Source: Hippasteria phrygiana
Taxonomy: Eukaryota > Echinodermata > Asteroidea > Valvatida > Goniasteridae
DNA length: 64,000 nt
Assembly (NCBI GenBank): GCA_037893225.1
Contig: JAZGUH010000085.1
Span: 62,001-126,000, forward strand
Direction: 5' to 3'
Shown here: piece by piece, positions 8,301 to 60,938 of the stretch
Layout of the letters: every line of letters begins with the position of its first letter
How positions within the stretch are numbered: the stretch's first letter is position 1
Notes under the pieces: model-generated
What the model saw: the letters and a program-made list of their open reading frames with translations, nothing else
The model's database searches: none
What the model was told of the DNA's origin: nothing
Made by a program: the position numbers and the translations under genes

Positions 8301-11300
8301 AAAAATCTCCCCTCGGATTTTGATCTGTGCCGGAAATTTTGGGCTCATTTATCTGTGTACAAGCCTAGGACGAAGGTCCTATAGTTGATAAGTCCAAACT
8401 TTTTGTAAAGTGGCCACCCAGGAGATTTAAGAAAAATTGCCGCAATGACCAGGTTGCCATTTTTGCAGGTTTGGTTTTGTACGTGTGTAATACACCTTTA
8501 CTTGGGACCATCGCAGGTTGGTCACATTATCCCTAACTCCCTAGGGTGTGTGGAAAATCATATTTAAATTGGAGGATTCAGGAGTGTTAGGGTTAAAGAT
8601 GAATATTTACTAATGCAGAAAATGAATATTGAGACACATACAGAAATATTTACAGAAATACAAAAAATATTTACATAAATCTATAGGGTTAAATTTTTAG
8701 CTTTTCAGTACAAGGCTTGTCCTTGTACTGTTTAGTACGAAAAACGTGTTGGTATCCAGTGCAACCATGCCCTGTTTGTTGGTTCTAAGATAGTCGACTA
8801 GACAACGTTCGGCAAAGTTAATCCATTAATAATTTAACTATGCGTCCTTGATCGAACTCGTGTTTTACTGTACTCTAGCCGACGTTGTGAATGATGTACC
8901 TGGGCAGGGTTTCTCGTAGCAGAGCACGGTCTCCGTACCGTAGCCCCCGCACAACTGTCCGCTGCCTGCCGGTGAGGGGTCCGTGCACGTCCGATCTCGC
9001 TTCACCACGCCCTCCCCGCAAGTCCTGCTGCAGACGGCCCAGTCGCCCCAACTCGCCCAGTTACCATCCACTGAAAGAGATTCAGCAGATTCTCACAGAA
9101 ATTTCATCGATTTGGTGTCAATAGGAAGGCACGTTATGCTGTTAATCGTCGTCGTTATAACAAAAGCCAAGACTGCACATGGGCAACATTCCCACAGACT
9201 TGTACACAAAACTTTTGTTTCCCATTCTGTTGTAAACCTTTGACCGCGTATGAACTTCAAAACTTACGAAATCGTATTTGCGAACATTTTCAACAATCCT
9301 GGACCTCGGAACACCTGCCACCCCCCCCCCCCCCCCCCCCCCCCCACCTCCCAATTCCTTTTTAGGGTACTTGTGGCACAACTTTCCCCCGGCGACATTT
9401 TGCTATCTTTTATTATTTATTTTAATTTTAATTGAAAGCGCCACCGCTTCACAACTGGTATACTGACACACCAACTCAGCTCTTGAATTTATTTCCGGTC
9501 AATACAAAAAATGAAGCCGCCTGTTCAAACAAAATGCCTGCGCAACATAAAAATGGGCCAACCTTTAGAACAGAATTTCCAGCTTTTTCCTCCCCCCCAA
9601 CCGAAAACCTTGATATGCCACTGAATAGCTTCCCAAACGAAACCTATATTGTTTGTGGTCTGCAATTTTGGCTCACTTCTTGTTTTAAGTTTGACGAAAA
9701 GAGATCTTGAACGAACCTGGACAAGGCAAAAAGTTGCACACGTTGATCTGTTTGTACTCTCCACTGCATGTCGGCAAGGTTTCTGGCTCACTACCGTCCC
9801 TAGCCGAACACCCCCGCGTCCGCGTGCTGGTTCCGCCCGCGCACGTTACTGTGCATCGGGACCACTGACCCCACAACTCCCACGTGGGGGAAGAGGCTGT
9901 GCATAGAGGGGTTAGAACCAAGGGCGTAAATTCATTGTGTTTGGAGGACTTGTGCTGTAATCAAGAATGGCATGAATGGAAGTGTGTTAAATTAATGAAG
10001 AAATATAATTTGTAAATTTGTAAAAACCTTGACCAAAGTGCCACTTACAAAATTCGTGTACAAAGTCTACGGGATTTGGGATAGTACTAAAATTTTAGCC
10101 CTTTTGTAATTGTACAAGCAGTGCCGGTAATAGATTCTTTGGCTTCAGTTTATGTCGTTCCCAAGCAGAACTCGAGATGCGTTTCTTTTCTTTTTTCACA
10201 GACTTCTTTATTTGACCTACAGAAACTTCTGAAGCCGCTGTAGGATACACTTCCAAATCTATAATAAAAATGTATACAGCGCCCTCATTTACTCAAAAGT
10301 TTGGTCCCTATGACGTTACTGTCGCGTCATTTGAACCGAGAGATACAGTGCAAACGTGGATGCACACGTGTTACTTCTTATACGAAGAGGATTAGGGACA
10401 GCAGATAAAAGGTAGTTGAGCAAAGAAACAAGGTAAAAGTGGAGGAGGATGAAAGAAAGTCTGTTGTTCATTTTACCCGGGCACTCTGACACGAGACATT
10501 TCTTATTCTGGCTGGCATCGCCTTGGCAGCTCCGCCCGCCGAACTCGGGCCGGGGCTGAATGCACTGGCGGTGCCGCTTCGTCTCGCCCTCGCCGCAGGT
10601 AACTGTGCAGACTGACCACTCCGTCCACTCAGTCCAGCCACCATCAACTGTATAATCAAAAGACACGATTCAGGGTGGACGTTCATTTCGCCTTGATAGC
10701 GATCAGGTTGGTGCCGTCTTCTACCACTGCGACCCCGTTTAATATTGGAATTCCACCTGATGCACGCGGATTTGCAGGCCTTGCAAGTATTTCTACTTTT
10801 GCTACTTTTCCTAATTGTTTTGGTTTACCTTGCTCCTATTTTTCCCACTTTTTTCTTGAAATTCCTATTTTTTCCTACTTTTTCGTCCCACAATTATGAA
10901 AAATGAAGTCTCATTGAATATTTTTTTCAGAAGTGTTACACACTTTCATATGAAAACCACAGGACTTGGGTGCAGGAGTACTGTAACTTTACCTCCATAG
11001 AGTACAATTGTTGTGAGTACAGAACATACCAAATGAGGCTTGTGATGCTGTGGACATGGGTGAGTATCAACAAAAAATACTCCTGAAAGTCCGCAAAAGT
11101 CCTACTTTTATCCTGATTTTGTCTTCCGAAATCCTGGATTTGGTTCGTCGGTCAATGCTTGATTGCATGGTTTTTCAGTTATTCTTTAGATATTACTCTG
11201 TAGTTTTTTTCTCCCATACCCGTAAAACTGGCATCTTCCTTGTCGTTTCCTCTCATTCATATCTGGGCCAGGGGCAGCGCGTGAGCACTGATCAGGCTAT

Positions 11301-14300
11301 GCATGTCTGAACCCAGAATGGTGAAAAGATTACTTTCCAATAAACCTGCTTACTTGATGCATCAAATTCGAAGAGGAAAACCTGCCCTTGATTTCCTAAC
11401 AAATTATTTTTTTTTTCACCATGACAAATAAAGTACTAACGTTTCCATTAATGAAGGTTAGATTTTACTGTTACCAAAGTAAAAATGAAATTCGTAGATA
11501 ATTTTGATATTCTTTTTTTTTTTTTTTACCCAAACACTCGGCGTACAAATGTATAAAGTCACCATTTCAAGATTCCAATACAGACGCATGTAAATAGGCA
11601 AGCAGCCTAAATGTAGTTCCTGCATCTTTCTTCTGGACCGAATCATGTACCTTTGCACGGCAAGTCGACATTACACAACTGCAACTCGTAGAGTTCACCC
11701 CGGCACGGGTGTTTCTTCTCCGGACAGGTGCGATGGCGGATTCTCACCCCACTGTCACAGGCGGCGCTACACTCCGACCAGTGGGACCACTCCTCGTACA
11801 CTAAAATATAGGCGAAGTCAATATGTTGTTTTGTTTGTTTGTTTGTTTTTTTTTTTTCTTTTTTTTATCAACATTTATTTCCAATTCCAACATTAAACAA
11901 TTAATAATCAAGAGTATAAAGGAAAATTGGAATTAGGGGCACAGTTTGGTTCGAAAAAGAAATAAATGGATTTTCAGCAGCCGTACCTTGGTCTAAAGGG
12001 CTGGTCACACGAAAACGGTGAGAATAAACGCCATCGATTGCTGGAATTGTTGTGCGTGGAATACGTGCGCATTCCACCCACCAATAGAGAGCGTTCATTC
12101 GCATTGTTTTCGTCATCGTTATCGTGGCCAGTGTGACTGGCCCTTTACGCTAGTTTCCGTAAGTACATTTTCAATCCGTTTTGTGGCCGTTGCGTTAGGT
12201 CTGTGGGTAAGCTGTCAACCTGATTCCCAGGATCTAGTTTCGGTTACGTTCTCAATGGTAGACCCTTGCTGGGAAAGTACCTTTTTCTGATTGGTTACTT
12301 CAATAACAAGCCGATAGTAAGCAGGAAGTCGTGGGTTCGAATCCCGCCCGAGTAAGCCTGTGATTTGTTTTACACAGACTCTCGGAAAGCACTGAGTATA
12401 CAATGCTTCATATATTACGTCGGGAAAGGGCAAAAGAGAAAACATCTCTGTTCTAATCGTAAATATTCGCCCGTAACGATTCCATGAAGACAATTTTCCC
12501 AAAACTGTACATGAGAAAAAATAATTAATAACCTTCGAAGTAGCTCGAAAATTCCAGCTCTTGGCTTATGACATGTGAGGCGAATCTCACATGTCATAAG
12601 CCAAGAGCTGGAATTTTCGAGCTACCTTCAAAGAGTAAAAAAAATTCACACAAATTGTTTTTCTTTTTACATTTTTAAAAATCTGTCGCTATCGTTATTT
12701 TCAGACGTGCATCTTGAGTGTATGCACCAGAATGGAAAATTACGACAATGTACCTGCAATGTATGGATTTTGTACTGGCAAGGTTTAATGCGATACCCCT
12801 TGTCCCCGTAAGTTACGGAAGCTCAGTGTTCTGCAGCACCAGACTATACTATTCCGAACAGATAGGCCATTTCTCAAACTATCTGGCTTCGTCTTTGGCT
12901 TTGGCTTCGCATAATTTTAGGTCCCCGAATTTGGCAAGATCTTGGACACTGTTTTTGGTACATGTACATCAAAGTCATTATTTTAATCCAGAGCCACAGC
13001 CTGTTCATTTTATTTACTTATTCAAGGCTCCGGATTGGCAATGGGCTGGGGAATAGCTGCAGACGTAAGACAAAGCCGAAACCGAAGACGTCCAGGGTTT
13101 GAGAAATGGCCATCGTCTGTAATCCACCTAATTATAATATTCAAACTTTTTGAGAGAGCGCCTAGTACTAGCGTATAACAACTCGATCGCCATGGGTACG
13201 AGGTTGGGTAGGCTGAAGAATAAAACGCAACGGACATAAAACGGAACCTATAAAACGCAATTACGGAAAGCCACATGCCACGTGCTTTATAATCAAACAT
13301 CTGATTTCAGAACTGAAATTCTATTGAGCATTTCCCCATATCTGTTCCTTCCAACACAGGGTGCAAGTCTCGCGACTTTCAGATCACTTGTTGGGGCTCT
13401 TTAGTGAACGTCTTTGTACCAAACATCGACTAGCCCAGCGACAGGGCTATTTAGTTTGTCTTGATACTTTTCAAGTTCAAGTTTCTTCACACACATATTC
13501 CAATGTTGACAACAAAAAAGTCATAATAAAAATAACTACACAATATTAATGAAAAGAATTTTAATAAAATGAAAATTAAACTATTCTATGAAAATGATAG
13601 ATTAATCAGAAGTCTAAGTCATATTTTTATTATCATTTTGGCCTTCAATCTGTGATACATGCTTATCCAAAATGCTGCACATTGAAATGCCTTTCCTCCA
13701 CAAGACCACAGTATTTTAGTTGGTTTGTATCTAGAGACGAATTCCAAATTGACGAAAATAGCACAGATCTGCGCACTTCCGGGTTTGTAAAAGAGGCTAT
13801 CGCGGTGCTCAGTATACAGCTGACTATGCTAAACGTGCGCTGCGCTGCCATTTATGGCGTGATTTATTCATGCATTAATTGATGTGTTGAATTAGCACTG
13901 TTTTTGTTTTATAGCATTGACATCCTCGCTTTCAACCCGGAAGTGCGCAGATGGGGCTAATGTGAAATTCTTCTATTAAAAGAAATATTAGACCACACAT
14001 CAGCAAGGAACAAAAAAATCCACATGACACATAAGGCCTTTTCACACTTGAGCGCCCCCGGGGCAGCCCCGGGGCCGCCCCGGCGTTTTCACCCCCCGAG
14101 TTCAACCCCGCGTCGTTTCACACTCGTTTCGCGCTAACCTACCTCAACCAACCCCGAGGCGAGCTCGCCACGGGGTTGGGCATGAGCGTTTCACATTAGT
14201 TTGTATTTCATCGACCCCCAGATGGCCAGTAAATTCCTAACTTCCTCCTCGCTGAAAATAATTCCTGAGATTCTGGGAACACAATGACCATCACAAAAGA

Positions 14301-17300
14301 GGGGGGGGGGGTTCCCTCTGCCACATATTGTGCTTCAGAATAATGGCGCTGTGCTTTCAGCCAAGCTGTATACAATTAACATATTAAGTGGCGGCCGCCA
14401 GATAATTAAGTGGCGGCCGCCAGATATTTATGTGGCGGCCGCCACATATTAAGTGGCGGCCACCAGATAATTAAGTGGCGGCCACCAGATAATTAAGTGG
14501 CGGCCACCAGATAATTAAGTGGCGGCCACCAGATAATTAAGTGGCGGCCGCCAGATAAACGGTACCAAAAAAATGTTTTCGCGCATTTGCAAAAAATTAT
14601 CCATCCCTTTTCAGTGGCACTATCTCCATAACTGCCGAATGCATTATTCTTGTATTCTGTAACCTACTTTCTACATCCTTTGGTATTCCCTCGCAAAACG
14701 GTGCGTAATGACTGCACTCTTCTACCTCGTAAGACTCCCCCACGCACTCGTTTCCCGCCCCTTGGGGGCGGGGCGTGTTGCACGCCCTCTCCTTTATATG
14801 TCGGCCCTGTCCGCAGATGGCCGTGCATACGGTCCACGAGCTCCACTCGCTCCAACCTCCCACTTCTGAAATTTGATGCAAGGTTGTTTGAACTTCAGTT
14901 CATATTAGAAGTACTGTAAATTCGTGTTCGGAGGGGGGGGGGGGGGGGTGATAATTTTCTTTTTCCAAAATCACCACCAAAAAGTGACCCCAGAACATTT
15001 TCAGCCTGAAAAAGATTAAGAAGAGGAAGGGGGGAAGGAGGTGATTAATATGAACATAGGGGCCGCTGATCAAAACACGTATACAATAATGTTTACAAGT
15101 GCAATGCATGAGGTACACAGAACGCATTTTTTATTACTTTTTGCCGTTTTTCGTCTGGGAAAATATCTCCCTTTTTTACGGTAGTAAAATTTCGGGGTGG
15201 AGGGGGGGGGGGGGGCGATCTTGTGAACCGTCACCACGGCCAAAAAAGTGTGGGGCCGTATCCATATATATCCTTGCAGTATTTAAACCGAGTATATCAA
15301 GAGTCTGAGTTCTGACTCGAAACTGATGAAGTGAACATGCATTGGTAGACCGACTTCACCGACATCGACGACTTGTCTGACTTCAGTCAGTGAATATGTG
15401 AATTGGAATGTCAGACTTTGTTTCTTTGCCAGGTGGATTTTGGTGAGGTTTGCTCTTTTTGGGCCATAAAGTGACCTAAATGAATTGACATTACAACTCA
15501 TTTCTAATAATATAAAGGGAAAAATTTTTATTTTGGAATTGTATCCAATTGGCTCAGAATTTCAAAAGTTTGGCATCCTCAAAAAAGGGCACTTTTGGCC
15601 CCAAAATCAAATTTGTTCAAAATCCACCATTAATGTTCCCAAAAGAAGGGACTAGGCAAAAAAGTCTCATGATATGTCAACTCAATTCAACCAGTTTAAG
15701 GGGGAAATTTGCCATTTTGAAATTTTGTCCAATTAATTTCAACAGTTTGGCATAGGTAGCAACTTCAAAAACAGTCACTTTCGCCCAAATATCAACCTTG
15801 TCTAAAATCCACCAAATGTTCCCAAAAGGAGGGACTATAGGCCTAGGCAAGAAACTCATTTCAACCAGGGGGGGAAATGGCTATTTGGGAATTTTATCCA
15901 ATTTTATATCAGAAGTTTGGGATAGCTAGCATCCTCAAAAATGTCACTTTCGTCCCAGAAAGTTTCAGGGGAATTTTTTTGAATTATCGAATTTGCTCAG
16001 AAATCTATGCAAATCTACGATCGTTTGTAAGCGTTGGTCTTACCGGGACAGAGGCCCGTCGTACCGGTACATGGTATTTCCCTGGTCAGCACCGCCGCGA
16101 CTCGCCCGTTGCCCACCGCGCACACGTCGCTGCCTTGGCACCGTCTGGTCGAGGTTTCCACCCCCTCGTTGCAGGTGGAGGAACACGCTGACCACATAGA
16201 CCACGGAGTCAGGAAAACACCAACTATCACATTACAACAAACGTTCTTTTCATTTCCAATTTCTCAATGAACTCATTTTTATCGGGGTCTAAAGTAATAT
16301 TTTATTAAATCAACCGTATGTGTGTTTCTTTTTCACTCTAAAATTTGGCGACATAAAAATTAATACATTTCAATTTTAAGACGCAAAAACTGATAAGTTG
16401 TAAGTTTGGACCAAAAACATTTTCCCGATTTTTAAAATAGTACGGAGTTTAAAAACAAAATCGGCATATTTTCGGATAATAATGTTCTTATGCGGAAGTG
16501 TAAACTTGTTCTGTAAGAAATGGCCCAGACCTTTGTTTTTTTACTTGCAAAAATGTACCAGGAACTCTTTGCACTTCCGCTTAGAACTTCAAAAGAAGGT
16601 AAATGTATCGTTTGCACGTCTTCATTGCCCACCTGGCCAATTAATGACTGGGACCAAGTCTACCATATTCAAGTCCCATCTACCATTGTTCATCACCCGA
16701 CTACCGATTTCTATGTGTTATATTGTGCACAAAATATAAAATAAAATAGTAACTTGACACACCTGCATCCACGCAAGAGTCATCAAAGCACGTGCCTTCC
16801 TCGTACTCCGATCCTTGACAGTACTGGCCGCCGTGCCGTGGCTGGGGGCTGGAACACCGCCGGGACCGATATGCCTTGCCGGTCCCGCACCGGGATGAAC
16901 AGCCGCTCCACATAGTCCACTCCGCCCAGCCGCCGTCAACTATTATAAGGGCGAGTCAAATAGGTATAATTAAACCCCAAATGTGATTTCATGAAAGTAC
17001 AGGTTAAACGATGTAATGTGATATATTGTGTGTTGTGGTACCCCAGCCCCGATACAACCTTGTAGAGTTATCAGAGTCTTGACCCCTTGAACCCGAGTTC
17101 AAAAAAGGAATCAACTCCTAAATAATATTTTGAGAATGACTCGGTTTAAAAACTTTGGGCTATGATAGAATAGGGTTTTTCAAAATACATTTGTTAGAAT
17201 CCCCAAATTGACTTTTCAGTGGGAAAAATGTTTGTTTCTGCTTGTAACTCAGAATCCATAGTGCGACTTTCCACTCATTTTGTGCTGCCAGGTCACAAAT

Positions 17301-20300
17301 ATATTACATATTAATCAGATCCCCCCCCCTAAAATAGTATCATTTTGTAGCCTAAGATCTTTTTAGACACTAAACCAGATGAAGTCACGGATTACCGAGT
17401 ATGAGTGACCAGTAACACGTAAAACCAGTCAAGATGTCAAAATTGGCACTAGATTGAATTTAATACATTTTTAAATATGAACAAAGAAACTGGCAGGAGC
17501 GGGATTCGAACCTGCGACCTCCGGGTTACCGTACCGGCGCTCTACCAACTGAGCTATCTTGCCCTATGTTGGCGGTCTCCCAAATTGTCAGTATCTTTGT
17601 TCGGGTGGGTGCAGATTGAATTTTACACGAATAATTTCAAGGCCCATAAATAAATAAGTTTACCTTTTCAGTTCGAAAATATTGCTTAAGTTCGAAATGT
17701 CAGGTCAGCTAATTTTGTTGATTTGTATATTTCAGGTGAATCTAACTAGTCATTTAGCAGTTTGCAGCAGTTTTAGTCATTTTCGAAAATATCACAGACT
17801 TTGGATTCTTTGATATTAAGAAAATTCTTTGTAACATTTGACACGTAGGACGGTAGGAGAATCAAGAAAATTCATTGCAAGATTTGCCAGAAGGAGATTG
17901 TATGTGCTTCACACAAAAATGCTAGTGCGCTGTAAACGTGTACTCCCCAGGATAATTATTTAAATAACATTCAATTTTTTATTCAGGGTCCTCGTTTTAA
18001 CAAAAACACGTGTGTGACGAAACACGGTACTCATACATTTGGCGCAATCGTTCCAACAATCAAGTCTACCACAAACTCACCGGCGCATCCTTCGAAATGT
18101 TTGTAGCAAATCAAATTCGTCCAGTAGGCATCCTGTACAGCGATAATAGGAAATGTGATGAATCGCAATGGAAAAATGTTTGACGGGGTTCATAGGGGGT
18201 AATGGACCTATGTTGGCACACCTTTCTCATCCTATCTGCACGCATGCAAGCCTCAGCAAAGTGTTACGCTATTTCTTCGTCGGTCTATAGACTATGTGCC
18301 CTTTGTTTACATCTGCACCGCCCTATATTCAAATATATGGAGGTTTTGCATAAACTAATTTGGTTAAGGGTGACACCAAAGGTCACATGTTCAAAGCATC
18401 TGACATAGACGCCACTCCTAAACCAAATGTTATGCAAAGCACGATGCATGCGTATACCGCCGGGACATTTCAATATAGAGTACCGAAGTGATGACGTCAA
18501 TCAATGCAATGTTCAGTGGAACCAGAATACATTCTAAACTGCATGTGTGTGGAACCATTGCCCCAGCAACTGACGTCAGACTTCGGTACTCTATAGATGT
18601 TAGCACGTGACGTCAGAGGGTACTTCGTCTATCACCAGTCTTTCCTCATAAAAAAGACGCGGTGTAGGCCTATAACAGGGCAAGTTGATATACGTACGGC
18701 TAGTTTACGGGGTCTGACCATCTCCGTTACTTGTTGGTAACTGCAGCGCCAATCCATGCACGCCATACTCAGTTCAGTATTTTCCTCGTTGAACGGCTCA
18801 ATCACCTTCAGAGCTCTTTGCTGTACAGAGTCCTCCTGGTTCTCCTCTGTAGAACCAAAGTCATCATTTCACATTTATTTCCGTAAACTGTACAAGACAG
18901 CAGCTCACATTATAGGCACAAGAAGAAAAACAATCATAGAATTTGACAATTACCAGCATGGCACATCCCAGAAGCCGAAACTTGTATAAAATACATCACA
19001 AGCGAACAAAATCTACTTTTAAAACACTGTTAACTGACCATAAACCATATATATTATTAGGGCTGTCCCGAATATACCAAATATTTGATCGTCAAGCGGA
19101 TATTCGAATACCATTTTGCCAGTTCGAATATTCGAAAAGATATATGCATGTACAGATACGACTCTGATGCTATTTTTAATAGAAAAGTTACGGCGCTTAG
19201 CAGTGTCAAATGCCGCATTTTTGTCAATCGCAATTTTTTTGTGGACGGAAGTTTATTGTTCCTGTCGCTGTCGGTAAAACCCTTGATATACAACAGAGGC
19301 ATGCAAAAAAAATGCTGTTTGAACGGTCCATGATATCAATCGCCATACGTAAAACACTGGCGTGCTTTTACGTGCAATGTTTTTTTTACCGGTGTGGCAT
19401 GCACTGAAAAACTTGATCGCCGAGTATCGAATATTCGAATAGTCAATAATTCGAAAATGAACAGCCCTAATATATATTATGGGCTCTATCTACTTGCACT
19501 GCGATGGAATACACCGTTCTACACATAGAAGGGACCCCTGGGCTGGAGACAAGACAGGCAAAGAGATAAACTAAACAGACGGATGAGACAAACAAACTAA
19601 TGACATAAACATGAAGACATTGTAATTTTAAATTAAAATCTGATAGGAACAAAGCACAGACTATACACACATGGACTGGCATTGAGGTATAGTAGTGCAC
19701 ATCTATGCACCCCGAGGGACTGTGAGTGACCAGAAGAGGGTCCTATTTCCCGAGGCCGAAGGGTAAGTAACCAGGCTATCCTGGTCACCGATAATGGATA
19801 AGCTCATCCTTTTGACCAATGGCAATATTTCAACCCCACGTATATATATTCATAGACATAGTATAGGAGTACCGAGTTCTAATACCCAACCCATAGGCGT
19901 AGCTAGTGGGGGAGGGGGGGGGGGGGGTAAGGGGGGTATTTACTCCCCCCCCCCAATATTTTCAGAGTGCCCTATTTTCTTTTTTTTACACCAAACTTTT
20001 TTTCCCACAAAAAATCAAAACCCTGCCCTCTACATGTATCTACGACATATCTGTGTTTAATGTCGCAAGCTATAGGAATGTAGCCCGTAAGTACACAATC
20101 GACGCAACATTAAAAATAATTTCCTTCATGCTGCTGGCCCTAGTGTGCCCTTACTGGAAATTATAGTGACCCCTGTTTTCCCCACTGAAAAATGTTAGTG
20201 GCCCCCACTGAAAAATGTTAGTGGCCCCCACTGAAAAATGTTAGTGGCCCCCACTGAAAAATGTTAGTGGCCCCCACTGAAAAATGTTAGTGGCCCCCAC

Positions 20301-23300
20301 TGAAAAATGTTAGTGGCCCCCACTGAAAAATGTTAGTGCCCCCTGTGCCCTAAAAATGTTAGTTCCCCCAGTGCCCCCACTGAAAAGTATTAGTTCCCTC
20401 AGTGCCCCCACTGAAAAATTTTGTTTCTCTGTGCTCTCACTAAACATTCTGGTGCCCCCTGTATCCCCACTAAAATTGCTGGTGCCCTCCTTGCCACAGC
20501 TAGTTGCGAATGCTGGTGCCGGGCCGGGCCCTCACTTAAAATGCTGTTGCCATGCATGGACCCCCCACTCATAATTATTGTGTCCCCAATGAAAATCCTT
20601 AGCAACATCACTGCACAATTTTCCCTAAATTGTTAAGAGTACGTAGCTGGCCATTCTAAGCTGTACAAACAATATGAATCTATGCCCTTTCCAATGCACT
20701 CCGGTCGAATGTGTGGAGGGAGCTGGATTCAAACACTCTCGTTGTTCAAAATAATAAAAATTGTTGGCTCAGTGGAAGAGCAAGTGGCGCATTACTGAAG
20801 TTAAGCAACGTTAATTGCAGTACTTGGATGGGAAACCACACAATGTAGCGTGCCTGGTAGCTATTGTACGACCCTTTTGGGCATGTTTGGGCTAGCCCAT
20901 TTGAGACCCAAGTGGGCCCCATCGGCCAAAACTGTATAGGGGCCCACTCAGTTGCCCATCAAAGGCCCCACAGGGCTTGCTGGCTTGGAAATAGTGTATT
21001 TAATTGTTCTGGGGCACGACAGGCCCTTATTCATCTCAAAAGGTCACGTCCTTCGGATGGGACGTTAAGCCGGAGATCTCGTGTGCTCTATGTGTTCAGT
21101 GCACGTAAAAGAACCTAGAGCACCTGTCGTGAAAAAGTAGGGTTTGCCCCTGTGCTTCTGGTGCCCTCATCACACATCCTGCAGTGTAATTGGCGCTTGT
21201 GTTGTTGGATGTTGAATGTTGAATGTTGAATTAAATAAAATAAATAAAATAGAGTTACTAAAAAGTACAGAAGTTGTTTTGTAACAGAAATTGTACATTA
21301 AGTTTATTTTTTGCAATTTAATGTTAATGACAGCAATTTTTTTAATTACAATTTTTAATTAAATTGCATGTCTTTCAAAACAAATCTATTGATCAAGAAG
21401 TGGTTGTATAGCGAATGTTTTTTTCACTTCTCACAGCCAATGGGCCATTCAGATCTTAAACAGGGTGTCTAAAAAAAAGCCCCTCCCAGGGTTGCAGCAT
21501 AATTCGAAAAAATGAAATGTTATTTCTACTTTTCTTAAATAATTGTGAAGCATATTTATTTGTACTATTTTCGGTAAAATTTCCACTTCAAAAAGGGAGC
21601 GGGGACATAATTTCCCTGCTGTTTAATCTGTTAAAAATCCCTGTCTACCTCTCAGCATGGATATATCACTTTATCAGGTGCCCTTTTTCACGTTTACCCC
21701 CCCCCCCCCCCCCCCCCAATAAAAATGACCTTGCTACGCCTATGCGACCAATTACTTGGAATAAAAAAGCTGATTTACCGGTTGTTGGGCAGGGCACGTG
21801 GACCCTACAGCTTGTCACGCCAGTGGTCTGTCCGTGACACTCGTTACCGCCGTTACTTGGCGGTGGCCAGTCGCAGACACGATACCTCAGTCTGGTTCCT
21901 TCACCACAGGTCGTGTCGCAGCCTCCCCACTCACTCCACGCACTCCATCCACCGTCCACTGTTGACCGTTCAAAAAGTGTTACACGAGTCTTCATCGACA
22001 CTCGGTGACAAACAATTGAAATGCTAACGGTTCAATATATCCAATATTATATCTTTGCCATCACGGGTACCAATTGTACCCCTATAATTTTACTCAATCC
22101 TTTCTCTTTGGGGGAAGAGAATCTGTCTTAAAGAACATATTGCTCAAGGACATAATTTAAGCACCGAGATCCACGGTTTGGCTTCAAGTAATCTTGAGAA
22201 TTGACCTATCGCCGTTTAACGAGCTAACCACGCCCCTTAGACAACCCAATAGGAACTTTGTGTGGTAATTTTTGTTTGTCCCAGATTTTGCGCGTTCCAC
22301 GTGAATTATAAATTGACGTGATTGGACAATAATTCACAAGCTGCGTTGTTGACGCGATTCGACTGCGATAGGTCAATTCCGAAGTTCACCGCTCTCAAAC
22401 CCTTTCAGGACACCGGCAATAATTTGCCCAATAGTCAGTGCTGAGTATAATGAAAATTATAAACAAGTAAACTGGACGAAGTAGGCCCTAAAACCCCAAA
22501 TTATAACACACTCGAAACTGATATCACTTGATTTCTCGTACCATAAGTTTAGGAAGAAAAGAAGTGCTGTTAAGCGAGGATGGGTGTTTGTGAACACAAA
22601 CCCACACATACCCTCGTACTTTCCTGTACTCATGAGGACATCAATGCTTTGTGTTTCCTATTCTGATTTTAACAAAAGATCGACTCTCGAGGACAAGAAA
22701 GATTCTTTTGTATTTTCTTTCTCCTCTTGTCCTCGAACGTGTGTTTTCTTCCTCCATGAACGTAGTACAATACAAGAGCACACCCACCCACATGCGTTTT
22801 ACTATACTTATGAGGACCATGAATAGACCCCTTCCCTTGTTTGTACTTTAACTTTTGCCGAACAGCTCCCATAAGGTTTGTACACGAAATTCTCCCAAGG
22901 ACTGTTATGGCTCAGGTCCTCGGGGTCATTCACTGTTATCCCTAATCCCCCATTGTCCCAAGTCCGCTATCGTATAGCTTAACCCGCTCATCGGCATACA
23001 TACATTTGTGTGGACATTCCTTTGTTCTCGAGTATAGATAAGACAAAACACACTTCAAAACGTTGCCATGCCTCGGACTGTAAACAGTTTTGGGGCGTGA
23101 AATTTCGACCATGATTTCCTGCACATTAATGCTACAGTAAACTTCGACATGAATAGTGTTGACTAAGGTCATTAGGGCCTAATGCATGACCTGATACGGT
23201 TGAGCGATCTATCATTTCAAAGAGAAGATCGTAAGCTATACACAATAAACTACTGTGGTGATGTCCGTTTGATCTGACAGAAGTTTGAGTCTGTGTTTCT

Positions 23301-34212: not shown

Positions 34213-37200
34213 CTGTACAGCCAAAGAGAGATACGGCATAAAAGTATGCAACACGCACAATAGAATGAGTCCGACATCAGGGGCTATTTTCATGGAGTTG
34301 CACAACAATTTTGTTTAACCTAGAAAAGCCTTGCTTAGTAAAAACAAACTTATGACTGGTTCTCGGCCAAATCTTTGCTTGGCAGGAAATAAAGCAATGC
34401 CTGCTGCTATGCCTGCTAAGCACTAGAAGCTCCTGAAAACTGAGACCGGGTTAGTAGAGTATCAGTATGGTACTATCATAGAGGTATATTTAAGGTATAT
34501 ACTAGAGCGCTGACTCGATGTACAAAGTGATGCCTGCTGGGCACATCCATGTTTGTGTACAAACCTATGAAAAACTCAAAATTTTGTATGGCTATTTGCA
34601 TATTTGCATATTTGCATTTGTATTCTATAAAGTTGCGTCATCGAAGCTGATACGCCGAAACCTGAAACGCACAATCAATAAATGAGCGTTTCATTTTGCT
34701 CTGCGCAAACAACGCAAACGCGTGCGCGTACTGCGCCGCAGATGATTTTTGCCGTGACGCTTTATAACCGTCATGACGCGCTATACGTTGTACTTCTGCG
34801 CTGCATTTAGAGTACACTTTTAAAATTCACTCCATCTAATTTCAGTATGTTCTACAAACACGCACATGAAATGGCTGCGCGCAGGAAGGATTTAAATACC
34901 TCCTCGCCTAAGATGGGGAGTTAGCGCTCTAGCAATTTAATATAGCTCTGTGGGTACAATGTACTTCCACCTCTGTGACCCGAGTTCAAACTCCGTCTGC
35001 GTTGATATGTGTACAGGGTTTTCAGCTCCCACCTGGGCCCAACTTCATGGCATCAATGATGCAAAATTCTGTGTCAACAACGCTAGCAATGATATTCTGC
35101 ACTAACACTGTAAGCACAGAATTCTGTAAGCAAAATTGAGAGGTGGAAGGCAAAGAAAGAACCACTGCACCAACCTGAACAGTCCAACTGGTTTAGAAGA
35201 AGAGCCAAACTACATGAATACCTGCATCCATCCTGCTGATGGAGATATACTGAGCGGCAATATCGCCTCTTGTTGCTGGGGTATCGGGTAGGTACCATGG
35301 CACAATCACCTCGGAAGGGTTGTAATTTGCCGGGGTCCAGTCTTTAATCACCCCCATCCCTGGCCGACCATTGCCAAAGCGCTCCGCGAACTGTCCGTAT
35401 TTGGGTATGTCCGTCGGGTCAGCCCGGTGTGGGTCCTTGAACCCAATGTAGAGAAGGAAAGGCCTAGAGAGGAGGGGCAGAGGAAAGAGCCAGAGAGAGA
35501 AAGTTATATACCTTGGTCCATGCGGCTGATGGACGTGTACTGCGCAGAGAGGTCGGTACGTGTCGCTGGAGTGTCCGGCAGGTATGGGGGCACGACCACG
35601 TCCTCGGGTTTGTAGAACAGCGGGTTCCAGTCGGGAATAACCCCCATGCCGGGCGCACCAGTGCCCCATTTATCACAGAACAAACCCAGCTTTGTTCCCG
35701 AGCAACGGTGGGGATCATTAAATCCCACATAAAGCATAAAGGGCCTGGTGGAGGAATGGAGACAGGTTTAAACCGTCAGAGCTCATTTTTGTGGTACTAC
35801 ACAACATTAGCAAACAAGCTGGTGCTTATTAAGTTCTTCCAAATTTTAAATTTTTTATCATTATCCCTAACCGCCTTGGGTACATGCAAAATCATAATAA
35901 AATTGCTGGATTGAGCAGGGTTAGGGTTAAAGACATATCGAATATGACTTCACATGCAATGCTAGTCAGAGCTTAACATTCCTTAAAATGCTTGCAAAAA
36001 TGCACTTAGGTTTTTTTTCTCAACCAGCCTGTACATGTAGGCCTACCGTCTACAGAGAGATCCTTTGCCTTGTCCAATTAGGAATAGGGCTGTGCATCTG
36101 AACCCGGTACCCGACCGTTACTGTCAGGAACCGGTTCCAGATTCTGGAATCGAGTACCCGTAACGGAATTAACACATTACTTAATTTCTCAGGCAATGAA
36201 AAAGAAAGTTTTTCAATGTCTTTTGTGGGGATTTTCAAAATGAAACCAGGGTAGGCCTACACGGAAAAACAAAATAGATTAGCAATGACGCTTGCGAAAA
36301 TGCAATTTACACTGTAAAGCTCACTGTACACACTTGTATCTTGCTGCATTGATGCACTGATGTGGCTTTATTATATTTAACATGTGGACCTTTATGAACA
36401 ATATGAACAGCAATTTCAGAGATTCAATTTTTGGGATTGGCTTTCTTTAACCCTAACCTACCTGAATCCATTCAGGATACCTCCATATTGAAAACTGGGG
36501 ATTTTGATGGATTGAGGATTGTAAGCCTAACGGAACTGCAGGATTTTGATGGATTCAGGATACCACCATATTGAACCAACTTTTTGTGCATGACAAAATA
36601 GGTGGATTTTGGCGGATTCAAGGGGTTAGGGTTAACGGGGGTACCCGTTGCTTTTGTTCAATCAGGTATCCAATTCCCGTACTACCAATAGGGCTGTCCC
36701 GAATATACCGAATATTTGAATATTCGATGGTCAACCGAATATTCGAATACCTTTGTACCGGTTCGAATATTCGAAAAAATATATATGCATGTACAGATAC
36801 GACTGATGATATTTTAATAGAAAAGTTACGGCGCTTAGGAGTGTCAAATGCCACTTTTTGTTGAAGGTAACTTTTGTGTGGGGGGAGGTTTATTGTTCCC
36901 GTCTGTAAAACCCTTGACACTTATAAAATAATTACTGCACAAAGGCAGGCTTTAGTTTGGTTTCTTGTTATCAGAACGTTATGTGTACCCGTAATGATCT
37001 TGAGCCAACAGGCACAGGCAAAACGTGGATCGGGCGGTCTATAATATCGATCGCCGCAAGTAAAACACCACCGTGCTTTGCGTGCAACTTTTTACCGGTG
37101 CGGCATGCAGTTGCAGCTGACGCATGAAAAACTTGATCAGCGAGTATCAAATATTCGGTCAAACACAGTTTCTAATAATCAAATACTAAATTATTCGAAA

Positions 37201-40200
37201 ATGAACACCCCTAACTACCAATAAGTTAAAATCACACTTCTAATTCTGAATGCTCTGAAGACATAAAATAACAAAAATGAATAACCACAACATTTTGTCA
37301 GCCACTTGCTTCTCAATCTAATAAAGCCGGCAGAGTTTTTCCTGCTCTGGTTGTTGAATAAATATAAACAAATAAAAATAAAACTGATAAAACACATTCC
37401 AAATAGTTCGGACGTTAAAACATAAACATCCCAAAATGACATCAACAATGAATGTGAAAGCCCGACTCCATGAAATGCATGCTCATCCCTGGTGGTTTAT
37501 ATTGCATAGTCCTAGCCATAGCACAGTCTTCAGGGGTAGTCTGAAGTGAGTGCCTTACTTGGTAGGGTCATTGCTGAGGAACGTCCGTACAAACTCCTTC
37601 ATGCGAGTGATGTTGCGGGCGCATTGAAGCATGGGGTTGTTGTACTCGGTCTCTTCATAGTCAAACTTGTAAACCTCAGGTGGGCCGACGTGCTTCTTGC
37701 CTATAATTGCTGTGACGGTACACAATAAGGAGGGGAATTTACATTTAATTTGATAAACGTTTTGCAAAACTTTCCACTTGCAAAAAGGCTGCGGTGACAT
37801 GTTTGCATATGCACCTGTGTTTCAGCTAGCTGAGAATTCCAATTGGCAATGTCTCCAGCTTGCACATGGAAGGAACCACAACCAATGATGTATCTATTTG
37901 CTGGGAACGGCATTTAATTGGCTGAAATATCATCACTGTTCATCAGCAAAGAACACACCCATTAACTAGCCACACATCTTCAAAGTCCAGTGGCCTACCA
38001 CTGAACCCAAATATATACTTTGTAATAAACAAAGAGACACACTGTATCAATTTAAACAATGGGGCTGTCAATCATTCTCTGGAAAGGCTTTTTTGGAGTT
38101 GGGATTTTATTTGGGCTTTTTTTTTTTAAAGACCGTGGAAAACTTTATACGAAAAAATGAACTGAAAAACTGAAATGAACATAAAAATTTCACCCGTTTT
38201 GTGTATGCACATGGATAAACGCTTCGGGGGATATTGCCAAGTCCAAATAATTTATTAAATGTATCTTTTTTCGTAGTAGAGGTTAAAGGGACACATTGCC
38301 TTCAAATGTCATGAAATTTTGCTGTTTGGAATTGTGTCTTATCTTTTATAAGAGTTGTTCATGCAAAAAACACGTATAATGTGTTGTAATTAGTGAGAAG
38401 TGATTACAAAACAAAAAATTGGCCTCTGACCCCTGACCCGCGAAACATTGACTTATTTCCAGTAGTAAATACCACCGTCTAAATAATGCGCAAAATACAC
38501 TGTAAGAGTCTTTAGGCTGGCGCCGCAGCCAGTGGCCTTGTAAACCTATCAGATGATCGCCAGGTACCATTCTCGACCTCGCGACACATATCGCCAGTGC
38601 TACTCGCCGTGCCACATTACATCCAAATGGATCAACAGAACGTACTTCAACCAGCTGCGACTGGTAATACGACTGCTGAACACGGTCCGCCATTTTGTGG
38701 AGTCAAAAATGTTGTTCTACAAAATGGCGGACCGTTATTTGTCACGAAATTAAACAAAAACCACGCAATTTGAAGGGATAGTTATGTGAATCTTTATATT
38801 CTACTTTTAAAAAAGCTCCCCAACCATATCCATTTCAGTTTTATAGCCAAAATCACAAAATCCAAAGCAATGTGTCCCTTTAAAACTAGATTGAAAAAAA
38901 GGCCCGGTATTAAAAGCCCGGATTTTATGCTAGACCAAATTTGACACATTATTTTATTCAGACTAACACTAGGACGTAGGAGAGGTGCCGTCCGCACCGA
39001 GCATTAATCTTGGCCCAACGGCATATTGAAAACATCAAACACAGACAATTGTATACACTGTGTATCCACACAATAGATAGTTATCAATTAACCCTCTTGG
39101 AATGTGATCAAGTACTGAAGGCTTTGTAAATTAACCCCTTGAGAACTTCTTTTTAAGGGAGACGTCGGCGTGTCACGGCGGTTCTGGCAGCCAAGCGAAC
39201 CGCTACAATGTGTTTGTGCAGTCAAGGCGTAACATAAACAATAATCCAACAATGGATTGAAACTGCACAAACGGCGGCAAATGGCGTCATCCGGCCTGGT
39301 GGCACTTTTTTTTTTGACGCCACATGGCGTCATCCGTACGCAAGGGGTTAAATAAATTTACAAAAATCATGCAAGACCTATTCCAAGTGCTCTCCGCAAC
39401 AAATTCCTCGGAACAAAAAATATAAACAAGAAGTGGCATGGGCTTGTGATTTCCATATTGACAAACTCTTTTTAAAAAAAATTTAAAAAGAAGAAAGAGG
39501 CCCTGTTTTTGCCAGATTGCGGCCCATATTTGTTTCAAGATGGCTTTCACTGACACACATTTACTCTCTTCCCTTTGCATTTTAATGAGTTTTTTGAAAA
39601 AAGCAAAAAAACTAAAACAAAACAAAAAACCAATGGAGGTGGCCTCAAAAAAGAAAGCGATCAGGGACACTGAACATGTTCTTTTTTGTGGCCGCATGGT
39701 CTAGTGTAAATACGATTTGAAGCTTTGCATGGTGGGTGCGATACGAGAAAGACTGGGATTGCGGGTAACACCATGTGAAATAAATCTCTTCCAGGAAGAA
39801 GTGTGGTTCTGAAAAGAACCGGGATGAGTGTGTAACTCGACGTTTCAAACAGTGTACTCTGTCCGTCCTCAGGAGTGGGAGTGACGTGATGCGGAGTTGC
39901 CGCAGCTTTTATGCTTTCTGGGTGCCTAGTCAGGTGTGACGGATGGATGCTGTTGTGTGCATTGGGGTGTGGCAGTAGCTTGTTGGGTGGCGTGGGTGTA
40001 GGATGTGTGGTGCTTGAGGAGTTGGGACCAGATGTTGTTGATGTGGAATTCGATGTCTTGAGAAACTGTGTTGTGTTTGCAGATTTCGATGGCCTCTCTG
40101 ATGCGTTTTGGGTGCCAAAATGTGACTGGGGCGATGATCTTGGCCTGGTTCCAGTTGATGCGGTGTTCGTGTGAGTGTTTGATGATAGCTGACTTGTCTA

Positions 40201-43200
40201 TTTCTCCTTTCCTGCCGTGTGCTTGGTGTTCCAAGTCTTGCGTCGAGGTCTCTGCTGGTTTCTCCGATGTATACCTTAACCGCATTCAAAGGTCTAGTGT
40301 ACTCGGAGATCGAAATATCCACTGGACCGCTGGACCGAGTCCAGTGAATTTTTTCATACACTGCGTGAAATGCTATCACTAAAGTTCATTTTTTTCTAAA
40401 TCTGGTGAACTGAAAAGCCCCATAATTTCTGGAATGGCTATTTTTAATTTTAAGGCAGGGAGTTTAAAAGAAAACAGCATTTCTAACCCATCCCCCCCGA
40501 CAGCACAGTTGTTCAAAACACAGTGTTCTTATTTTTTACCATTGGTCTTGTGAAATACCTTCTGGTCGAGTAAAATTTATGTGCTACTAGCCCAGCTGTA
40601 TAGTTGATTTTTACCTGAAATTTGACCCCTGGTACTGGACTCAAGATCACATCAACACTACTGATTGGGGGGTTCAAATCCAGCAGGGTCATGTTGCTTG
40701 TGTCCTTGAGCAAGACACTTTGTCACAAGTTGCTTCACTCCACCCAGTATTAAATGGGTAAAGGGCAGTGATAGTTATGCGTTTGATAATAACCCGGGGC
40801 TGTTGTATACTCCCAGGGAGTTGAGGTTTCAGGAATCATTGTTGGTCCTGATGAGCAGGATAATAATAATGGTAAACATTTTTACTTAACCCTAACCCAC
40901 TAGGCCCTTTGGCTAGGAACCTTCCTCAATCCTTCAAAATCCTCCAATTGCTCACCCACAAAAGTTGCATTCACCCTCAATCCTCCAAATTCCTCTAAAA
41001 TTTAGGACTTGTGTTCTGATGCATGTTCCCCATTTCCTCAATCCTTCAAAATCAACCAGTGTACAAAACCTATGAAGTTTTTCCCAAAAAGTTAAAGTAT
41101 AAACAATAGGAAAATGTACATGTATATGGTTGGTGATGCTGTACTAAATCACCATTTCTCCTCAATCCTCCAAAATCAACCGGTACTAAATCACCATTTC
41201 TCCTCAATCCTCCAAAATCAACCGGTACTAAATCACCATTTCTCCTCAATCCTCCAAAATCCTCCAAAACCGCATAGAGGATTTTGGAGGACTGAGGGGG
41301 TTAGGGTTAATAACTACGACTACGAGTGAGAAAATGCGGGTTATTATTACTATTTTTTATTTTCAAAGTGAACAAAGAAACTGGCAGTAGCGGGATTTAA
41401 ACCTGCGACCTCCGGGTTACCGTACCAGCGCTCTACCAACTGAGCTATCTTGCCCTATGTTGGCGGTCTCCCAAATTGTCAGTATCTTTGTTCGGGTGGG
41501 GGCTAGTCAGAAGTCATAAACCCAGAATGCCGTATAGCCAGGGATCACACCCAATTTTACGATACAACCAGGGAAGCGACATTGTGGGGATCACTCAATG
41601 AGGATACGACTTTTTAACTTATAATTCGTCAAACAATCCACAAGGGAAACTGACAATTTGGGAGACCGCCAACATATGGCAAGATAGCTCAGTTGGTAGA
41701 GCGGCCGGTACGGTAACCCGGAGGTCGCAGGTTCGAATCCCGCTCCTGCCAGTTTCTTTGTTCACTTTGAAAATGTATTCAAAAATGTACCTAGTCAGTT
41801 TCCTTTGTGGACTGTTTGACAAACTATTTTGTATTTTGTCTTACCCGTTTTGATTCCAGCTGGCTTCAGAATCACTGGAAGTGTCTTGACCGCCTCAAAT
41901 GACTGAAAATTGTGGGGTAGGTGGTGGAGGCCGTACATGCCATTCTGGTGCTGGGGCAGGCCGGTCAAGATGGCTGACCGACTGGGCGAGCAACTGCTGA
42001 CCGAGGTGTAGGCATGACGGATGGTGACACTGCTCCGTGCCAACGTGTCAATGTTGGGCGTCTTGCAGACACTATTGTTGTACACCTGAGTTTCAAAGCC
42101 TGCATCATCAGCTGGGTGATAAGAAAAATAATGCTTTGACTGACTAGTTCATGAGGTTTTTCACACAAGACGGGGATTATGCCCTATTGTAACGATACAA
42201 CCTGGGAAGCGACATTGAGAAGATCACTCGGTGAGGATAGGACTATCGTCAAACTGTTCAATGATAACAACCATCTAAACATGTGGCACAACCTGTTATT
42301 TCAAGATTTTTGTCAGCAAAATCCATAAAATCCAATAAATGTATGTGAACACTATGAGTGACCATACAGTCACTGTGGCAAAGAACAGAAAACACAAACT
42401 TTCTTCCCCTAGTACATGTATATTGCATGAAAATTTCACCAAAAAAGTCCACAATAGACCGGCTATTGTTATGTAGATTAGTGTCATTGTCTGGCAGGAT
42501 GACTTTAAGTAATATATGTTGCTGTTTTCCTTGTAAAATTTTGACTAATTTCTGTTGTGTATATTCTCTATGTAGAAGGCAATGGAGAGAGCGTTGTACA
42601 GTCAATCGCATCCAACGGAAGGCTACATTTTGCCTACAAATCATCAGTTCGCAGTGTCTTACCTGGTTGGAGACAAGGAATATCCGAGATCAGGGTCTCT
42701 ACATCCGAAGCACGAGATGATTAGCCAGGAATTATTTAGCAAAATGAAAGAATATTCTGAAAAGATTTGCGACACCAACAATCACGGTCGACCAAGACGT
42801 GCGCTATTTTGGCCGGTTGCCACAGACTCATTATTCATAATGTATTACCACCTGACTCAAGGGCAGTTTCATTCTGTGCTGGAGGGGTGTCCACTTTTAG
42901 TCTACATACGTGTGATGTCCTAATGGTATATGGTGGTCGAGTCCGATTTATTGTTATTTTACTTCCAAAGTTAAATTTTCCGTCGTCACCACACGGGTGG
43001 TACAATGTAGGAGTGTCGAGCGTCGGCCGTCGTTCTGCATGTTCTTATGAGAAATTTTCATTTGCAAAAACTGCTGATCATTTTCAAGTTTGTCTCCCTT
43101 TTTGTGAAAAATGTATCGCATTTTGCGATGCGAATCCAGCTATTTCAATCACTGCATAATAATGATTCTTCTTATTCTTGGTGTTTCTTATGTCTCTAAC

Positions 43201-59534: not shown

Positions 59535-59674
59535 CCTCACATACTTTCCCCAAAGTGTATTTTTATTGCAGATTTTATCTTATCGGCCGATAATCGTTGG
59601 AAATAGTCTAGTTCTCCGACCTGATAATTCCCTGACTTTATAAATTGCTCCGTTTTGTCTAAAGTATGGTCAGG

Positions 59675-60080
59675 TTACCAGAGAGGCCATCGAAATCTGC
59701 AAACACAACACAGTTTCTCAAGACATTGGATTCCACATCAACGACATCTGGTGCCAACTCCTCAAACACCACAACACACAACCTACACCCATGCCACCCA
59801 ACAAGCTACTGCCACACCCCAACGCACACAACAACATCTAGTCGTCACACCACACTTGGCACTTAGAAGGCATAAAAGCTGCTGCAACTCCACATCATAT
59901 CACTCACACTCCTCCTGAGGATATGTAAGCACACATCCGAAACGTCGAGTTACACACTCACCACCGGTTCTTTTCAGAACCACACATCTTCCTAGAAGAT
60001 ATTTATTTATTTCACATGGTGTTACCCACAATCTCAGTCTTTCTCGTATCGAATGCAAAGCTTCAAATCATATTTCTATT
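59675..60080 (+). mobile_element. Penelope-like retroelement 3' fragment, second copy
   Basis: Begins inside the endonuclease region (REAIEICKH) and runs through the shared tail including CCGAAACGTCGAGTTACACA and CACATGGTGTTACCC. 5'-truncated. It ends about 290 bp before the start codon of the PAN gene, so it may contribute upstream or 5' UTR sequence. Confidence 0.7.
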
Positions 60081-60374
60081 TTCTGCTTGAAGTAAATTTC
60101 TTAGACAATATAAACCAGCAGAGGGCGCTTTGTACTCTCTTCCACGCATATCGTGACGAGGTCCATCCTCGACTCCTGGCCTGGTACTTTTTACAACATT
60201 CTACGGAACAACTGATTCTACAGAGGGCTGTGTATTTCCGTCGCAGATAGTATTTTTATGGCTAAATAGAATAGGTCGTCGCGACTCGACTGTTTCTGGA
60301 TAGGCCAATAGCACTGCGAGGTGCCTCTTTAGTTGATTTTAAGGGGGAAGGAAAATAAAGAATAATACGATACA

Positions 60375-60710
60375 ATGTTGGTGGTTTTCCTACTCACCTT
60401 CAACCGTAACATACTAGCCGAGGCCTTTGTCGGATCCACATGCCGAGAAAAGTACTCTGGAGACTGCCCACGGGTCCTGCACAGCGATTTCAACGGCGTA
60501 GCGAACCGTGTCTTGCCCAGCCACGGATACCGCAACTTAACGGGCATTTCGCGTGTCATGTGCGGCACGAAATGTCTGCCTGATTATCGCTGTTTCTCTT
60601 TCCACTACACAGACGGGGAGAGGCGGTGTGAGCTGAATGGGGCTTCGGCGTCACGATTCCCGCTAGCTCTGACTGAGGAGGTCGGTACCAACTACTTTGG
60701 CTCGGAAGAG
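60375..60710 (+). CDS. First exon of a secreted PAN/Apple-like domain protein
   Basis: ATG then 112 codons to the donor GTAGGC, phase 0. Residues 1-17 (MLVVFLLTFNRNILAEA) form a signal peptide. The rest fits a PAN/Apple-like module: Cys at 23, 31, 63, 67, 73 and 85, with the diagnostic run CGTKCLPDYRCFSFHY and then RRCELNGAS. Such modules bind proteins or carbohydrates outside the cell and in invertebrates often sit at the N-terminus of larger lectin- or fibrinogen-like proteins. The remainder of the gene lies beyond the window; no second exon was found by 64000. A Penelope fragment (59675-60080) and two hAT elements flank it. Confidence 0.75.
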
Positions 60711-60938
60711 GTAGGCCTCGATAACTGTTAAACCCTTTATATTTTTTAATATTCACTTTCTCTAGTTTTGAGAACGTGAAAGAAAAAGCTATTTCACAGG
60801 CCCTTTTTATGAAGTCTAGTGGATAATTTCTTTGGTGTCTATTGAAGATTCATCCTCTAGTTTTATAGACCCAGGAAAACCATAAGGGCGGTACTAGGGT
60901 TGGCAACCTGAAATGTGGCCAACTCCACCACCACTGTA

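Follow-up and report, generated by a model that had tools for sequence, protein, structure and literature searches.

Alternative use of homologous neighbouring exons has been described for OGDH (exons 4a and 4b) and Tpm1. In OGDH, exclusive splicing is imposed by branch points lying at 25-41 nt from the donor; a threshold of ~50 nt is proposed, and the distance from donor to branch point amounts to 41 nt in Tpm1 and 48 nt in the SV40 t-intron (PMC7969005). In addition, a tandem-duplicated exon has been described in an invertebrate enzyme, the alternative oxidase of Crassostrea virginica, with two messengers observed (PMC5589949). Here we analysed a stretch of 64,000 nucleotides from the sea star Hippasteria phrygiana (contig JAZGUH010000085.1, positions 62,001 to 126,000; hereafter the window), in which an SGSH-like sulfatase gene carries what we regard, with a probability of about 0.85, as a tandem-duplicated and mutually exclusive exon pair, 4A and 4B. 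As in OGDH and Tpm1, the two exons are homologous and adjacent, a single one would be used at a time and the branch point, here predicted, lies near the upstream donor; as in OGDH, exon choice would alter an enzyme (PMC7969005). In those genes, however, the distances of 25-41 and 41 nt are found within longer introns, whereas the whole sea-star spacer measures 48 nt with the predicted branch point at its base 8 (PMC7969005). Moreover, unlike in OGDH and Tpm1, the swapped part bears a catalytic residue, and the sea-star case is known from sequence alone. The oyster gene differs in the enzyme concerned and in that its two messengers were observed, those of the sea star being predicted (PMC5589949). 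The kind of exon system is already known; this enzyme, this swapped part and this tight geometry did not turn up in the openly accessible literature searched, and among the matches listed there neither SGSH nor any other sulfatase was described as having mutually exclusive exons. We know of no comparable exon pair in human SGSH. SGSH goes unnamed in the main text of a study covering 236 tandem-exon events in humans, and it is included among the splicing changes tabulated for human macrophages. Two further papers that mention SGSH refer to this splicing class separately from it, either in general or with respect to another gene.

The gene model comprises exons 2 to 5 (Table 1); exon 1, encoding the signal peptide, was not located.

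Table 1. Features of the SGSH-like sulfatase gene, in positions of the window.
Feature	Positions	Strand	Remarks
Exon 2, SGSH-like gene	41845..42111	-	Asp31/Asp32 equivalents, CSPSR formylglycine motif
Exon 3	37559..37709	-	donor CAA/GTAAGG, exits in phase 2
Alternative exon 4A	35512..35744	-	233 nt; DPHR, both loop cysteines present; groups with Patiria and Acanthaster
Spacer between 4A and 4B	35464..35511	-	48 nt; 4A donor, then pyrimidine tract, then 4B acceptor
Predicted branch-point adenosine for 4B	35504	-	spacer base 8, inside the 4A donor region; predicted from sequence only
Alternative exon 4B	35222..35463	-	242 nt; DPHR, alanine at both loop-cysteine sites; groups with Asterias isoform X1
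Exon 5, constant, through the stop codon	33419..34212	-	Lys at the Arg282 position

A preliminary description of this DNA had proposed two intact homologous versions of the DPHR exon within 35222..35744, and both were recovered with stop-free frames and identity at 49 of the 77 aligned residues, 4B being longer by three residues. Compared by search, the two exons share 62% amino acid identity with E values of 6e-30 to 8e-30, and a human SGSH probe matches 4A at 4.7e-28 and 4B at 2.3e-27. Each exon is preceded by AG and followed by GT, is open in frame, and has intact catalytic residues and splice sites. The phases first proposed for the pair, entry in phase 2 and exit in phase 1, also held when the reading frames were joined: exon 3 runs open through either 4A or 4B into exon 5, and inclusion of both, or of neither, shifts the frame into stops. 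Single use of one of two homologous neighbours in equal phase hence keeps the frame and double use breaks it, as is expected of mutually exclusive tandem-duplicated exons. Reading through from 4A into the spacer gives an immediate stop, the open frame at 35504-35767 ending ...RMDQGI.

The differences between 4A and 4B fall 22, 19 and 50 times on the first, second and third codon positions over 77 codons (p = 6.5e-5 against an even split), a pattern which indicates purifying selection, as would be expected if both exons had been translated since they parted. One method found dS between them to be saturated, hence no dN/dS is given. The introns flanking the two exons showed no homology past the exon limits, except for a stretch common to both compared pieces. 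Furthermore, tblastn of the window with E values up to 1 revealed neither a further exon-4 copy besides the two nor a duplicate of exons 2-3 or 5. These observations bear on the idea that the pair is an artefact of assembly, or results from merged alleles or gene copies. SGSH-like paralogues are common among echinoderms, as seen both in the protein search and in the tree of the constant part, which speaks for such merging; against this, 62% amino acid identity is too low for alleles, the flanking exons are present in one set in the window, and in the proteins of other sea stars the constant parts attached to either exon type belong to one clade. We consider such an artefact extremely improbable.

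Each of the two exons has relatives in other sea stars. In the protein search scored on 4B, three of 1163 candidates passed, namely Asterias rubens "isoform X1" (83%), a sea cucumber protein (64%) and a bacterial sulfatase (47%), and in the search scored on 4A five of 11 passed: Patiria miniata "isoform X2" (91%), Acanthaster planci (84%), Amphiura filiformis (71%) and two nameless proteins (66% and 41%). A third search with alignment, in which 1560 of the 8000 candidates scored passed and the best 120 were used, was combined with these into a working set of 122 proteins. We built an exon-4 tree of 53 rows and 79 columns from 51 proteins chosen by hand among the 122, together with 4A and 4B. 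Many of its forks are open, 4A stands with Patiria and Acanthaster (98/90), and 4B stands with Asterias (100/98). AU tests rejected the pairing of 4A with 4B (p = 0.009) as well as placement of the Asterias exon among the A types (p = 0.036), and gave p = 0.49 for all five sea-star exons as one clade. Fixed differences between the three A and the two B sequences occupy 18 of 81 alignment columns. The 52-row tree built from the constant part unites the four sea-star genes in a single clade (100/100), within which Patiria stands outside Asterias, Acanthaster and the window gene (98/89), an arrangement that may differ from the species order. Since A and B exons group separately and the constant parts form a single clade, the two exons appear to have parted before these sea stars did, barring transfer of exons between species.

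Conservation of the pair also speaks to the proposal that a single exon is in use in this species and the other is a relic that happens to be still open. The listed proteins of other sea stars carry one exon type each, no second species with both being shown among the proteins of the 90%-clustered collection. In such a collection the two isoforms of a species, 94% identical in the present case, would fall into one cluster, with one visible. The X1 and X2 labels belong to predicted proteins and may denote differences elsewhere, such as the longer N-terminus of the Patiria protein. On the other side, 4A of the window is identical to its counterparts at 70 of 76 positions in Patiria and 65 of 77 in Acanthaster, compared with 344 of 403 and 353 of 404 in the constant part (Fisher p 0.14 and 0.46), and 4B is identical to that of Asterias at 66 of 80, compared with 331 of 403 (Fisher p 1.0). 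Each exon is accordingly conserved like the constant part, which is 82-87% identical to the three proteins, and splice sites, frame and catalytic residues are whole in both. Purifying selection on both exons is accompanied by conservation of each in relatives, and neither appears to be decaying. We therefore regard a relic as improbable and favour alternative use of both exons.

The intron of 48 nt first noted between the two versions was borne out (35511-35464). It opens with GTATATAAC, after which a pyrimidine tract follows (C/T at 92% of positions 10-46), and adenines ahead of the final AG occur at positions 3, 5, 7 and 8 only. Within 120 nt of 4B a single branch motif passed a simple score, that of the adenosine given in Table 1, 40 nt upstream of 4B; under the same score the three other acceptors of the gene have four to six candidates each. 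The donors of 4A and 4B reached scores of 6.5 and 4.9 by a table of base frequencies, lower than those of exon 2 (9.0) and exon 3 (8.5), a point against the exclusive-exon reading. As in the Tpm1 and OGDH type of steric interference, the spacer places the predicted 4B branch point less than ~50 nt from the 4A donor. Any branch point within 48 nt would lie under this threshold, and thus the steric argument does not depend on one adenosine. Joining of 4A to 4B appears sterically implausible. Some animals do splice very short introns, and the argument against 4A-4B splicing is to be taken as strong but not as proof. The spacer also contains three CTCTCT motifs and one TTCTCT (PTB-like), and one TGCATG lies upstream of 4A; these are raw motif counts, on which no claim is built.

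The mechanism we infer is that exon 3 would be spliced to either 4A or 4B and the chosen exon then to exon 5. Binding of U1 to the 4A donor and of U2 to the 4B branch point would require the same bases, and this competition would block the joining of 4A to 4B; mRNAs with both exons or neither would be frameshifted and presumably removed by nonsense-mediated decay. Exclusive use of 4A or 4B is very likely on these grounds. A variant of this scheme would have the exons alternative without being strictly exclusive, some transcripts with both or neither serving to switch the gene off by frameshift. Both kinds of transcript would run into early stops, and poison-type frameshift patterns occur in other genes; yet the 48-nt spacer, with its predicted branch point inside the donor, should prevent 4A-4B joining, although skipping of both exons would still be permitted. 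We consider this variant rather unlikely, if somewhat less so than a relic exon, and retain strict mutual exclusion as the preferred reading. If correct, the 48-nt spacer would be an extreme example of exon choice imposed by steric constraint, and one that is readily tested.

The preliminary description had presented the locus as mutually exclusive exons in SGSH, the lysosomal sulfatase. The exclusive arrangement was upheld by the frames, selection, conservation in sea stars and the short spacer; the gene itself is not canonical SGSH. In the constant-part tree of 52 rows, rooted at its midpoint, the window gene belongs to a group of 16 rows (14 echinoderm, including the window, and two nameless; 92/88). 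The vertebrate SGSH proteins form a separate clade of 25 rows (100/99) together with canonical copies of Acanthaster (P0025) and Asterias amurensis (P0029), and sea stars accordingly possess canonical SGSH apart from the window-type gene. Identity of the window gene with canonical SGSH was rejected by its place outside this clade and by the O-sulfatase lysine at the position where sulfamidase has its distinguishing Arg282; this lysine is encoded by the constant exon 5 and is shared by both forms. Among the 122 proteins, this position holds Arg in 68 and Lys in 54 (48 by pattern, 6 by eye). On the 52-row tree, with the Arg282 column still included, the fewest changes are two: of the 25 canonical rows 24 have Arg, Oculina being the exception with Lys, and the remaining 27 rows have Lys. 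Because of this lysine and of the separate echinoderm group, a sulfamidase label for the product seems unsafe; O-sulfatase activity would be a reasonable guess. Many animal proteins named sulfamidase or sulphoglucosamine sulphohydrolase likewise have the lysine of O-sulfatases and are possibly not true sulfamidases, and such misnaming is probably widespread.

Both predicted isoforms exceed the Pfam cut-offs for Sulfatase and SGSH_C, and the domain match is accompanied by the CxPxR motif, the metal ligands and the catalytic Lys and His of type I formylglycine sulfatases. Models of one A-type and one B-type protein both had sulfamidase as the best structural match. Compared with human sulfamidase as described (PDB 4mhx, 4miv), fold and family are the same and 9 of 10 listed active-site residues are present in both isoforms; the window gene differs in the lysine for Arg282, in its separate echinoderm group and in the absence of Cys183 and Cys194 from 4B (PMC4014121). 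These two cysteines, retained in 4A, form the disulfide pair of the loop. Exon choice would exchange ~80 residues that include the presumed catalytic-acid histidine and an adjacent loop-rich segment, yielding two enzymes with the same catalytic residues and a loop that is disulfide-tied in the A form and disulfide-free in the B form. The two forms would probably serve different substrates or conditions. Thus conceived, one gene would encode two sulfatases differing only in the presumed catalytic-acid segment and active-site loop, and nature would thereby have run a loop-swap experiment bearing on substrate choice, in the family that includes the human gene underlying Sanfilippo A disease. Loss of the loop cysteines was also seen several times among SGSH-like paralogues (P0039, P0048, P0073, P0084, P0093, P0097, P0106, P0082, P0006 and others), the named ones among the matches listed being mostly from snails.

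A wider reading, possible but doubtful, would see here an O-sulfatase of SGSH-family descent with a splice-switched active-site loop, in which the overlap of 4A donor and 4B branch point acts as the toggle and the exon pair dates back to the origin of the echinoderms. Two proteins of the crinoid Anneissia japonica (P0015 and P0017), encoded on different contigs, carry one A-like and one somewhat B-like exon 4 (72/74 for the grouping with 4B). Were the pair of echinoderm age, these proteins would represent its two exons sorted into separate genes.

Elsewhere in the window, several open frames at about 9685-22031 (-) resemble, by eye, thrombospondin type 1 repeats such as those of a neighbouring gene; one of the frames, 14597-14899 (-), gave a TSP_1 match (1e-8). 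The open frames at 39930-40385 (-) and 59628-59918 (+) are similar to each other by eye and are probably copies of a mobile element, the former having no match in a Pfam scan. Finally, a PAN domain match (6.1e-6) was found for the open frame at 60366-60731 (+).
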